DNA of 33,250 bases from Clostridiaceae bacterium (GTDB taxonomy: Bacteria > Bacillota > Clostridia > Lachnospirales > Lachnospiraceae), in contig CAJTGF010000062.1 of NCBI GenBank assembly GCA_910575585.1, forward strand, positions 1 through 33,250, written 5' to 3'. Positions 1-18,552 of the stretch are shown here, piece by piece. Numbering within the stretch: the first letter of the stretch is position 1; each line of letters starts with the position of its first letter. A program made the position numbers and the translations under genes. Under the pieces are notes generated by a model that had not been told where the DNA came from, did no database searches, and saw nothing but the letters and a program-made list of their open reading frames with translations.

Positions 1-310
1 CAGCGTCCCCTACCGAAACCACCTTAAGTGAGCAAACCTTAGCCAGCGAATTCTGGTTTTGCCAGGCAGAGGAGAGCTGTCCCGTCCGGGTGAATCTATG
101 CCATGAAGATGAGACCAGGAAAACAGGAGGGCCTCACCCCGAGTGTTTTCCGCTTTGGGCTCATCGGAATGTTCGGCATATCTGAACCCGGACGGGACAG
201 CTCTCCTCTGCCTGGCCTCACGACAATTCCCGCCCCTACTTTGCTCACTCAACTAAATAGCAATTCCATTATTTTGCCAGTTTGCGCAAGAAATCGTTCT
301 TAAGGGTCTA
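1..310 (+). repeat. Structured palindromic repeat, copy 1
   Basis: This is one of three related copies in the window; the others are at 17795-18103 (opposite orientation) and 18234-18501. The core is bounded by GTGAGCAAA (28-36) and its reverse complement TTTGCTCAC (240-248). Inside, 62-91 and 186-215 form a perfect 30-bp stem. Within the loop are smaller pairings: TATGCC/GGCATA, GATGAG/CTCATC and GGAAAACA/TGTTTTCC. Homology to copy 2 extends past the core to about 310, ending at a TCTTAAGGGTCTA-type sequence. No credible protein is encoded. It may be a MITE-like mobile element or a structured RNA; I do not recognise the family. It touches the window edge and may extend to the left. Confidence 0.85.
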
Positions 311-6358: not shown

Positions 6359-7066
6359 ATGGCGTTGACCAATGATGATCTGCTGGCGCTCTCTCAATTG
6401 CTGGATGTTAAGCTGGATTCCAAGTTGAAACCTATTGAGTTTAAACTGGAGGGGATTGAAGACAGGCTGGGCGGTCTGGAAAGCCGGATGGACGGTTTGG
6501 AGAACCGGATGGACGGTTTGGAGAGCCGGATGGACGGTTTAGAGAGCCGAATGGACGGTTTGGAGAGCCGAATGGGTGGTCTGGAAAGCCGAATGGATGG
6601 TCTGGAAAGCCGAATGGGTGGTCTGGAAAGCCGAATGGATGGTCTGGAAAGCCGGATGGATGGTCTGGAAAGCCGGATAGGCGACTTGGAGATTCGGATG
6701 GATGGTCTGGAGACCGGCATGGATGCGCTGAAAACAACAGTAAAGGGTCTGGAGATTCGGATGGATGGTCTGCAGACAGAGATGGAAGGTCTTAAAATCC
6801 GGATAGGCGGTTTGGAGGCTGAGGTGGATGAACTTAAGAACCGGATCGGATGCCTGGAAAACAAGGTTACCAAGATTGCCGTGACCCTTGAGATGGATAT
6901 CAGCCCACGTCTCAATACCATTGAGTCCTGCTACACGGATACATACCGCCGCTATCAGGTCTACAGCGACAGGATGGAGGGCGTATTTCGGGATGTGGAG
7001 CTGCTGAAAAAAGTGGTAAGGGACCACAGCAGGAAGCTTGAGAGGTATGGTTTTGCTCCAAGTTAA
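6359..7066 (+). CDS. Heptad-repeat coiled-coil protein, function unknown
   Basis: A 235-residue protein. After a 38-residue head, about 19 consecutive heptads run from residue 39 to about 170, most reading GLESRMD or GLESRMG. The regular hydrophobic spacing (Leu and Met or Ile every 3-4 residues) predicts one long coiled coil. The C-terminal 60 residues are non-repetitive and mixed-charge (RYQVYSDRMEGVFRDVELLK). There is no signal peptide or membrane segment, so it is probably cytoplasmic. A strong ribosome binding site (GGGGGAGG, 6343-6350) precedes ATG 6359. It has its own promoter and terminator, so it appears monocistronic. I do not recognise a function. The antisense open frames over the repeats are artefacts of the repeated codons. 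Confidence 0.8.
   Translation: MALTNDDLLALSQLLDVKLDSKLKPIEFKLEGIEDRLGGLESRMDGLENRMDGLESRMDGLESRMDGLESRMGGLESRMDGLESRMGGLESRMDGLESRMDGLESRIGDLEIRMDGLETGMDALKTTVKGLEIRMDGLQTEMEGLKIRIGGLEAEVDELKNRIGCLENKVTKIAVTLEMDISPRLNTIESCYTDTYRRYQVYSDRMEGVFRDVELLKKVVRDHSRKLERYGFAPS
6473..6682 (+). repeat. Tandem 21-bp coding repeats
   Basis: Ten near-identical in-frame 21-bp units of the type GGTCTGGAAAGCCGGATGGA(T), each encoding one heptad. Units alternate between GAT/GAC (Asp) and GGT (Gly) at the last codon, giving a partial 42-bp higher order. Such arrays can change copy number by slippage without breaking the frame. Confidence 0.85.
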
Positions 7067-15975: not shown

Positions 15976-16119
15976 GTTACTGTTTACAGGTACTCTGTGA
16001 ACGTAACCGCATATGCTCATTTAAAATCGTCTGCGGCGATGGGGCATGTGTTTGCCCCCCGTAACGATACTGGACCATGACGAATCAGCGGAGTGATTAG
16101 CCATGGTGTGAACAGTAAC
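15976..16119. repeat. 144-bp palindromic MITE-like element
   Basis: Terminal inverted repeats GTTACTGTTTACA (15976-15988) and TGTGAACAGTAAC (16107-16119) match at 12 of 13 positions. The interior contains several further hairpins: GGGGCA with TGCCCC, a nested CCATG/CATGG with AATCA/TGATT, and a secondary pairing of the left end with GTGAACGTAAC. No open frame. A non-autonomous transposon or a structured RNA are both possible; no target duplication is clear. Confidence 0.55.
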
Positions 16120-16134
16120 CTCCTTTCATAGAAA

Positions 16135-16359
16135 ATGTACTCTCGGAATCTCTCTTGCACCTGCTTTTGTGGCTGATTTTCCGCCAGATACGCATAAATT
16201 TAATCAACGTACGTTCCACGTACGCCTCATAAATTTATACCTTGTGGTACAGAGTGCCGCCGCTCCGTAGGAGCATGTGTTACGGTATGCCCTTGGGTAT
16301 GCGCATCTGACAAAAAATCATCTCACAAAATCAGGCACAAAGAGACTCCGAGAGTACAT
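16135..16359. repeat. 225-bp long-inverted-repeat MITE with GAAA duplication
   Basis: The left end ATGTACTCTCGGAATCTCT and the reverse complement of the right end ATGTACTCTCGGAGTCTCT agree closely, and similarity continues inward for about 60 bp with small gaps (CAGATACGCATA against CAGATGCGCATA). Short hairpins fill the middle (CGTACG/CGTACG, GCTCC/GGAGC). GAAA flanks the element on both sides (16131-16134 and 16360-16363), consistent with a 4-bp target-site duplication. It sits directly upstream of the radical SAM gene promoter. Confidence 0.75.
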
Positions 16360-16450: not shown

Positions 16451-17797
16451 ATGCTGATCCAGGAACAGATGGATCTGCAGCAGAAGCTGGCTGTTTTGTC
16501 GGACGCGGCAAAGTATGATGTTTCCTGCACATCCAGCGGTGTTGACAGGGGCAAGAAAAAGGGGATGCTGGGTAATGCGGTGGCCGCAGGGCTGTGCCAC
16601 AGCTTCGGAGCCGACGGCAGGTGCATCTCCCTGTTAAAGATCCTGTTTACCAACCAGTGTATCTATGACTGCCGATACTGCATAAACCGCCGTTCCAATG
16701 ACGTGGTGCGCACCGCCTTTACGCCGGATGAGGTGTGTACCCTTACCATGGAATTTTACAGGCGCAACTATATAGAAGGATTATTTTTAAGCTCCGGGAT
16801 CCTCTACAGTCCCGACTACACCATGGACCTTATCTATCAGGCCCTGAAAAAGCTGAGGGGGCAGTACCGGTTTAACGGTTACATTCATGTGAAAGCCATT
16901 CCCGGGGCCGACCCGGTACTCATAGAACAGGTAGGACTTTTGGCGGACCGAATGAGCGTGAATTTGGAGCTGCCTACGGCCCAGGGGCTGAAGAGCCTGG
17001 CCCCATCCAAGTCCAGGACAAGAATACTGACCCCTATGCGGCAGATCCAGAGAGGGATCCGGGCGCGGCGGGAGGATGTGATCCCCTATGAGAGGGGGCA
17101 GAGGTTTGTGCCTGCAGGGCAAAGCACGCAGATGATTGTGGGAGCCACCCCGGAAAATGACTATCAGATGATCAAAGTGGCGGAGGCCCTGTACCAGAAC
17201 TACGATCTTAAGAGGGTCTTTTACTCCGCCTTTGTCAGGGTTAACGATGACAGCTGCCTTCCGGTCCTTCCCGGAGGCCCTCCGCTTTTGCGGGAGCACA
17301 GGCTGTACCAGGCAGACTGGCTCATGCGGTTTTACGGCTTTCAGGCCGATGAGCTTTTGACAGAGGAGAAGCCCCATTTTAATGTGCTTTTAGACCCCAA
17401 GTGCGACTGGGCCCTTCGGCATATGGAACTGTTTCCCGTGGAGATCAACAGGGCTGACTACGGTATGCTCCTTCGGGTGCCGGGGATCGGGGTCAAGTCA
17501 GCCAAAAGGATCGCGGCGGCCAGAAAAGGGGCTGAGCTTGATTTTTTGGACCTTAAAAAGCTGGGAGTCGTGTTAAAGAGAGCCGTGTACTTCATCACCT
17601 GCAGGGGAAAGATGATGTATCCTTTGAAAGTAGACCAGCAGTTTATCACAAGCCAGCTGGTGGGGGAGGAGCGAAAAAAAGTGTGGGATATCAGGAGTAC
17701 GGACAGCTACCGGCAGATCTCCATGTTTGACGACGGCTGGCTGGCCCCTGCGCCCACTGGGGAGGATGTATACACGGCGGTGTTGGGACAGATTTAG
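16451..17797 (+). CDS. Putative DNA modification/repair radical SAM protein (TIGR03916-like)
   Basis: A 448-residue radical SAM enzyme of the group linked to uracil-DNA-glycosylase-type proteins. The iron-sulfur motif is CIYDCRYC (Cys70, Cys74, Cys77). A C-terminal helix-hairpin-helix (LLRVPGIGVKSAKRIAAAR) points to DNA binding. The family almost always neighbours a DUF4130 protein (TIGR03915), and that partner is here at 18553, although separated by 750 bp of structured repeats. I chose ATG 16451 because AAGGAGG lies 7 bases upstream and a good promoter precedes it; an in-frame extension to 16277 would run through the promoter and the MITE. The chemistry of the family has not been established to my knowledge. 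Confidence 0.9.
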   Translation: MLIQEQMDLQQKLAVLSDAAKYDVSCTSSGVDRGKKKGMLGNAVAAGLCHSFGADGRCISLLKILFTNQCIYDCRYCINRRSNDVVRTAFTPDEVCTLTMEFYRRNYIEGLFLSSGILYSPDYTMDLIYQALKKLRGQYRFNGYIHVKAIPGADPVLIEQVGLLADRMSVNLELPTAQGLKSLAPSKSRTRILTPMRQIQRGIRARREDVIPYERGQRFVPAGQSTQMIVGATPENDYQMIKVAEALYQNYDLKRVFYSAFVRVNDDSCLPVLPGGPPLLREHRLYQADWLMRFYGFQADELLTEEKPHFNVLLDPKCDWALRHMELFPVEINRADYGMLLRVPGIGVKSAKRIAAARKGAELDFLDLKKLGVVLKRAVYFITCRGKMMYPLKVDQQFITSQLVGEERKKVWDIRSTDSYRQISMFDDGWLAPAPTGEDVYTAVLGQI

Positions 17798-18103
17798 ACC
17801 CTTAAGAACGATTTCTTGCGCAAAATGGCAAAATAATAGAATTGCTGTATTGTTGAGTGAGCAATGGGCGGGGATTGTCGTGAGGCCAGTCAGAGGAGAG
17901 CTGTCCCGTCCGGGTTCAGATATGCCAAACATTCCGATGAGCCCAAAGCGGAAAACACTCGGGGTGAGGCCCTCCTGTTTTCCTGGTCTCATCTCCATGG
18001 CATAGATTCACCCTGCCGGGACAGCTCTCCTCTGCCTGGCAAAACCAGAATTCGCTGGCTAAGGTTTGCTCACTTAAGGTGGTTTCGGTAGGGGACGCTA
18101 CCT
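17795..18103 (-). repeat. Structured palindromic repeat, copy 2 (inverted)
   Basis: This is copy 1 in reverse orientation, with homology starting exactly at the TAG stop codon of the radical SAM gene. Core ends are GTGAGCAA (17857-17864) and TTTGCTCAC (18064-18072). The long stem arms are the same sequence as in copy 1 but carry a few mismatches (CGTCCGGGT faces ACCCTGCCG), so this copy is slightly decayed. The conserved loop is retained. Confidence 0.85.
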
Positions 18104-18233
18104 CAACTTTGCAGCGAAAAACAGCTTCTTTTTATGGCCTCAAGTATATTGTTGAGTAAGGTTAAAGCGATGTTGTTGGGAACCTGAAAGGATCTGCCGC
18201 CAAAGCAGTTATCTTTTCACTACAGAGTCGAAA

Positions 18234-18501
18234 CAGCGTTCCCTATCAAAACCACCTTAAGTGAGCAAATCCCGGCCAGCGAATTCTGCTTTTGCCCGGG
18301 AGGGAAGGCAGGCTGTGTGCCGGGCGGGTGAATCTATGCCATGGAGATGAGACCAGGGAAACAGGAGGGCCTACCCCCTCCTGGTTCCCGTTTTGGGCTC
18401 ATCGGAATGTCTGGCATATCTGAACCCGAACGGCACACAGCCTCCCTTCCCTCCCGGGCCCACGACAATCCCCGCCCATTGCTCACTCAACAATACAGCA
18501 A
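18234..18501 (+). repeat. Structured palindromic repeat, copy 3 (divergent stem)
   Basis: Flanks, core ends (GTGAGCAAA at 18261-18269, TTGCTCAC at 18479-18486) and the central loop match copies 1 and 2. The stem arms are different: 18294-18329 and 18424-18459 share little sequence with copy 1 yet pair with each other at 33 of 36 positions. The inner hairpin GGGAAACAGGAGG/CCTCCTGGTTCCC is longer than in copy 1 and also compensated. The 130 bp between copies 2 and 3 contain TTGTTGAGTAAG at about 18150, resembling a worn repeat end. Confidence 0.85.
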
Positions 18502-18552
18502 CATAACGAATTTAAAGTTCCGGTTTATCCGGGGTAGGAGAAAGGAGCAGTT

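Follow-up and report, generated by a model that had tools for sequence, protein, structure and literature searches.

Mobile hairpin repeats of Lachnospiraceae with a conserved tip and arms that are probably rewritten by copying

Bacterial genomes carry small non-coding repeats, such as Correia/NEMIS, ERIC/IRU and RUP, which are mostly intergenic and bounded by terminal inverted repeats (PMC2229807). As described in the same source, bacterial MITEs are about 100-200 bp long with ends that are mostly TA, several families generate target duplications, and the transcripts are predicted to form long stem-loops (PMC2229807). REP palindromes are characterised by stems of 5-13 bp and a GTAG or CGTC tag (PMC3733652). 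Inverted repeats can also be altered by template switching, which has been reported to homogenise the repeats and to invert what they enclose, and to give rise to multi-base mirrored changes and to stems created in one event (PMC8604942, PMC8794818).

The hairpin family described here belongs by kind with the bacterial MITEs, and MITE-like hairpin repeats are known already. Like Correia/NEMIS, ERIC/IRU and RUP, the present hairpins are mostly intergenic and display terminal repeats and target duplications. However, compared with the bacterial MITEs as described in PMC2229807, the units are longer (~215 bp to more than 700 bp), and the form found in the source genome combines two hairpins in one composite, the interior of which occurs in both orientations. 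The unusual parts are a core common to several genera under different ends and arms that are rewritten in concert. As in the REP/BIME sequences of PMC3733652, the hairpins are high-copy extragenic palindromes found singly and as inverted pairs, yet their stems measure 30-145 bp and they are associated with 7-bp or 11-bp target duplications. A REP palindrome was ruled out by the stem length, which is 30-36 bp in the window and 88-145 bp in a genome of another genus (G170). Arm homogenisation, spacer inversion and mirrored changes resemble the reported template-switch cases; those studies, as far as they are described in PMC8604942 and PMC8794818, deal with short repeats in yeast genes and RNA genes, whereas the present arms reach about 145 bp, belong to a mobile element and enclose a tip that escapes homogenisation. 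Among the titles and abstract openings returned by a full-text literature search, which covers journals outside subscription, none describes this hairpin family.

The window, i.e., the whole 33,250-nt stretch of DNA analysed, is contig C62 of the source genome (G000), a 6.1-Mb draft. A first-pass annotation of the window had named three repeat copies with a common layout at 1-310, 17795-18103 and 18234-18501. All three stretches were located, but copies 2 and 3 are the halves of one composite rather than separate copies, and copy 2 is inverted relative to copies 1 and 3. The composite consists of end P, hairpin A in reversed orientation, a spacer, hairpin B and end Q (Table 1) and is flanked by genes for a radical-SAM protein and a DUF4130 protein. 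At copy 1, the contig starts inside a composite, with the spacer, the B half and end Q absent. Since copies 1 and 2 are 97% alike over 234 nt, in opposite orientation, the window holds two stem types and not three, copy 3 being the second, related type. The arm pairing claimed for copies 1 and 3 was reproduced in full, and the equivalent arms of copy 2 pair at most positions (Table 1). Likewise, the inner change from GGAAAAC/GTTTTCC to GGGAAAC/GGTTCCC keeps 7/7 and 6/7 pairs. The arms of copy 3 had been called largely different from those of copy 1; while they do pair, 24 of 30 A-arm positions match the B arm when gaps are allowed, and the A and B stems are thus less different than was held. 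Wholesale arm replacement was found elsewhere among related hairpins, namely in G170 and at locus L352. For copies 1 and 3, the predicted folds of either strand are much more stable than those of dinucleotide-shuffled sequences (z -9.2, -10.3, -9.0 and -8.9).

Table 1 Positions of the hairpin elements and their parts in the window.
Feature	Position	Strand	Remark
Copy 1, half element of type A, from the inner end (at 1) through hairpin A to end P	1..310	+	contig start
Hairpin A 5' arm, copy 1	62..91	+	30/30 pairs with 186-215
Conserved core, copy 1	97..179	+	
Hairpin A 3' arm, copy 1	186..215	+	pairs with 62-91
End P of copy 1, TAGACCC... read inward on the - strand	246..310	-	
Whole composite: P, A (reversed), spacer, B, Q	17795..18538	+	empty sites in relatives
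End P of composite	17795..17864	+	
Hairpin A (copy 2), arms 17886-17915 and 18010-18039	17865..18099	-	27/30 pairs
Conserved core, copy 2	17922..18004	-	
Spacer, 134 bp	18100..18233	+	
Hairpin B (copy 3), arms 18294-18329 and 18424-18459	18234..18501	+	33/36 pairs
Conserved core, copy 3	18335..18417	+	
End Q (CCTACCCCGG..., read inward on the - strand)	18502..18538	-	

Other repeats were observed in the window. Adjoining copy 1, positions 316-481 form a separate 166-bp near-palindrome with 82-nt arms that are 77% complementary and ends AGAGCGTGTTTGAAAAT; similar DNA is found in one other fetched locus (L075), and the sequence looks like another MITE-like repeat. The intergenic stretches 15976-16124 and 16132-16238 are found at multiple positions in relatives (79-86% and 91-94%, respectively) and in other fetched loci, with no Rfam match at gathering. 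Finally, the gene at 6359-7066, which encodes 235 aa, contains a long array of 21-bp repeats; these translate into a seven-residue repeat of type GLESRMD, likely a coiled coil.

About a hundred half elements are carried by the source genome. A pattern of the inner end gave 111 matches, compared with 6 for the reversed control (up to two mismatches), so the recurrence is not due to chance. Two DNA searches gave at least 101 and at least 121 matches, where the best 40 of 174 and of 151 candidates were scored, and best matches on the fetched stretches delimit 132 pieces, including fragments. When each pair was restricted to one A and one B half of more than 200 bp lying less than 700 bp apart, 31 inverted A+B pairs were found, with spacers of 67 to 464 bp; here A and B are best-match labels, and further stem types exist. 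At least one pair combines A with A, and such pairs (e.g., C4:88860-89825) are outside the 31. The spacers listed all point the same way with respect to A and B and look like deletion forms of each other. The outer ends are of two kinds, P and Q, which are unlike each other beyond a few bases; in all 19 units where both ends could be clearly assigned, one is P and the other is Q. With the A-with-A unit left out, A adjoins P in 8 units and Q in 10, and both arrangements are present in every spacer-length class. The interior has therefore been inverted relative to the ends more than once, or the ends have been exchanged.

The hairpins are non-autonomous mobile elements that have transposed in relatives, as indicated by terminal inverted repeats, present in genomes G007, G022 and G295, in combination with 7-bp or 11-bp target duplications. 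The unit of G007 and G022 is a single hairpin of ~215 bp with ends TAGG..ATTGCGAAA.TC; among 20 end pairs, 6 are bordered by an exact 11-bp duplication, compared with 0.28 for shuffled partners, and a further three, at L124, L205 and L214, match after a one-base shift. The G295 unit is a 256-bp hairpin with CTCAAACTTCGCAGG ends, and exact 7-bp duplications were found at 14 of the 24 terminal-repeat pairs on the fetched stretches (0.75 with shuffled partners), or 13/23 since L351 and L367 are the same place. Short derivatives of 28, 41, 43 and 197 bp retain exact duplications and must hence have lost their interiors after insertion. Relatives have an unoccupied site where the window has its composite: in G024, nothing separates the radical-SAM stop codon from the region before the DUF4130 gene. 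Target duplications and empty sites thus bear out the suggestion of the first-pass annotation that the repeat is a mobile element. By eye, no clear target duplication was seen at the P/Q composites of G000, nor were common termini or a convincing target duplication seen among the G170 copies. IS200/IS605-type elements insert without target duplication. An element of this type was considered and rejected, as the duplications in G295 and in G007/G022 contradict it; the G000 composites alone would fit.

Remnants of the elements were also observed. At least about a dozen end pairs in G007 lie 47 bp apart (e.g., C4:1636-1700), and we take these to be the same kind of remnant as the short derivatives. 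Remnants in G007 and G295 (L368, L374) keep both ends with the core and most of the arms gone, which suggests frequent deletion of palindrome interiors.

A match to a described MITE with a known transposase, raised as a possibility by the first-pass annotation, was not found, but neither was any transposase. None is framed in the G295 terminal-repeat places looked into (among 100 of 129; 20 stretches opened), and the matches listed for G007 and G022 include no related autonomous element. Locus L370 (G295:C1:4706500-4712500) contains three tandem copies of a frame of ~330 aa, with a half element, i.e., one arm and part of the tip, between two of them. Frames at L370 and L181 and a 327-aa frame next to one terminal repeat at L367 look like PD-(D/E)XK 'recombination-promoting nuclease' proteins. 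They were dropped as a candidate mobiliser, with L367 carrying its own complete small remnant and L370 only a half element. Clustering of 1,260 open frames near cores at 100 loci revealed no recurrent neighbour gene in the 15 largest groups, which consist of translations through the hairpin or of apparently ordinary genes. By simple frame calling, 3 of 65 loci lie inside a frame of more than 450 nt, and the 62 classified loci comprise 30 codirectional, 16 convergent and 16 divergent contexts. No clear gene-orientation preference was seen, the codirectional contexts having the hairpin in the same orientation as the genes in 13 cases and in the opposite one in 17. Similarly, no replication-strand preference was detected in G295, where 28 of 44 cores fall in one class (p 0.096, with the origin assumed at the record start).

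The composite was matched in 9 of 99 genomes, including the source, all of one genus; in the most distant of the nine, the match barely exceeds the inner hairpin, and other stems surround it. A covariance model built from the inner hairpin core gave hits in 14 relatives out of 295 and, in a sample of 391 genomes from the class, in 3 (source genome included in both). All of these matches are within one family, the Lachnospiraceae, with a patchy spread. Scanning GTDB genomes for a core pattern gave at least 77 stretches, the titles of which name Lachnospiraceae or genera that we assume to belong there, in addition to one 'uncultured Clostridium sp.'. The matches listed include 44 cores in the complete genome of Lachnospiraceae bacterium CE91-St56 (AP025576.1; G295), 13 in Anaerosacchariphilus polymeriproducens and 11 in Eisenbergiella porci. 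The exact core pattern had no match in viral contigs, and the window composite had none in plasmids and phages. Two or three cores lie close together at L274, L232 and L323, and multi-hairpin arrangements like the G000 composite may thus occur in other genomes.

The hairpin core of ~85 nt recurs across genera and is largely conserved, while arms and ends differ between genomes. In an alignment of 114 core sequences from 100 chosen loci, 97.5% of the cells are paired, 22 of 24 pairs are changed on both sides, and 0 of 500 shuffles reach any of five measures, counts that are obtained from related sequences fitted to the model, with many cells common by descent. Structures slid along the same alignment pair at most 50.5% of the cells. 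Mispairs read on one strand amount to 79 G-T and 42 A-C, or to 70 and 8, respectively, without the doubtful pair 7-97, which was judged not to be paired, and excluded, after the counts had been seen. Asymmetries of the core also persist across genera, i.e., the ATGGA/GGAATG internal loop and an A-G mismatch in GAGACC/GGGCTC. As arm-to-arm copying would make such positions paired, their persistence points to selection on a folded single strand, and judged by these sequence patterns the core looks selected in this form, either as RNA or as single-stranded DNA. Selection on structure, as proposed in the first-pass annotation, therefore holds for the tip, based on covariation and the one-strand G-T bias; of its structured-RNA reading, the strand-specific structure of the tip stands, be it formed by RNA or by single-stranded DNA. 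Rfam 15 gave no match for the window at gathering and none for five loci at E 1. At nine loci, MIR1858 (114 bits; gathering 137), MIR868 (49; 200) and BsrC (25; 38) overlap hairpins, and we take the sub-threshold MIR1858 and MIR868 matches to be long-hairpin effects.

The arms display a different pattern of change. Twelve complete fetched copies were compared in G170, leaving out 3 of 15 cores that lie at contig ends. Their arms, defined as the best-paired stretch, are 88-145 bp long and 91.1-98.1% paired within a copy, and the cores are 78-98% alike (mean 87.5%). Of the 66 pairs of copies, 14 have arms more similar than in any of 200 shuffles, and 3 have outer 50-nt stretches that exceed the shuffles. 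Comparing L172 with L162 gave 12 mirrored changes and 1 one-sided change. Eight recent G295 copies display 5 mirrored states, 2 of them transversions, and 9 one-sided states, with about 0.4 mirrored cells expected if the arms were independent (counted with short flanks). Adding six older copies gave 41 mirrored, 15 one-sided and 1 other, the mirrored states being divided into 21 transitions and 20 transversions; these 14 copies are from 20 fetched, as L350, L352, L353, L355, L356 and L362 were too different or broken. L352 has the inner arm common to the G295 burst, yet its outer part is different on both sides, with the outer arms matching each other at 99% over the 67 nt searched. Arm mispairs, counted with the six outermost core bases per side, show no strand bias outside G000, with 41 G-T and 41 A-C (53 and 46 with G000 included).

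Copies within G000 differ in this respect. The 37 close A copies have 53 one-sided cells and 1 mirrored cell (0.4 expected). In the 30 close B copies, the corresponding counts are 19 and 16 (0.6 expected). All 50 A copies together gave 66 one-sided and 27 mirrored cells, and all 37 B copies 26 one-sided, 61 mirrored and 6 that are changed on both sides and unpaired. Independent arm changes exist, and the case of solely identical copies, under which the first-pass annotation would have given up its structured-RNA idea, did not apply. A two-sided excess that does not need G-U intermediates is seen in G295, G170 and the G000 B copies but not in the close G000 A copies. A mirrored transversion would pass through an unpaired intermediate under selection alone but would be a single event if copied, which favours copying. 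Together, transversions, block replacement and equal G-T and A-C counts make copying with the opposite arm as template the best-fitting account of arm pairing, except for the closest A copies. The copying process suggested in the first-pass annotation, which rewrites one arm from the other, thus applies to most arms, though not to the close A copies of G000.

Overall, the hairpins are probably non-autonomous mobile elements whose arms are rewritten by copying and whose tip is kept by recognition. While being replicated or repaired, the palindrome would fold back on itself, and template switching or quasipalindrome correction would write one arm from the other or from the adjoining flank. Such fold-back copying would homogenise the arms and replace them blockwise, and in the G000 composite it could flip the interior with respect to P and Q. 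The tip may be spared from erasure through recognition of its folded, single-stranded form, for which a transposase or another factor supplied in trans is the most likely candidate. Alternatively, a structured RNA could be selected over its whole length, with the arms as RNA helices undergoing compensatory changes and the copies as transposition passengers. Core covariation with its G-T bias, the very stable folds and the lower energy of the minus strand of copy 1 (-156 versus -137 kcal/mol for the plus strand) are consistent with such an RNA, but we consider it unlikely, given that arm mispairs outside G000 have no G-T excess, mirrored transversions are as common as transitions, arms are unrelated between most G170 copies, and the orientation to codirectional flanking genes is mixed.

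It could also be speculated that the family is an ordinary MITE, its palindrome kept by mutation bias alone and its core by recent spread or horizontal transfer. While transposition with target duplications and the patchy distribution would be expected of such an element, arm copying should then erase the asymmetric loops of the core, which persist across genera; with the one-strand G-T preference of the core cells and a core that stays while ends differ between genomes, this makes an ordinary MITE rather improbable. Arms captured from phages, plasmids or other genes, acting as a memory or silencing guide, would explain the long copy-specific arms in G170. However, the one G170 arm of 12 that was searched (L161) matches only its own partner within G170, searches with its hairpin found nothing in phages and two plasmid matches at chance level, and the L352 outer arm has no other good match in G295; capture is thus very improbable. 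Finally, there is a small chance that the core itself is the mobile unit, a folded single strand (RNA or ssDNA) inserted by an undescribed enzyme, with the arms then built on site by fold-back copying of flanking DNA. If true, each copy would be a near-perfect giant hairpin of local sequence with a common tip.

With mobile hairpins, copied arms and a recognised tip as the preferred reading, structural selection (tip) and mutation-driven pairing (arms) seem separable within one molecule. This calls for caution in covariation-based RNA discovery, where two-sided changes count as proof of function. The family also poses the question of what recognises the core, and whether in its RNA or DNA form, and the dozens of marked palindromes in each genome could be used to measure how templates switch in bacteria.
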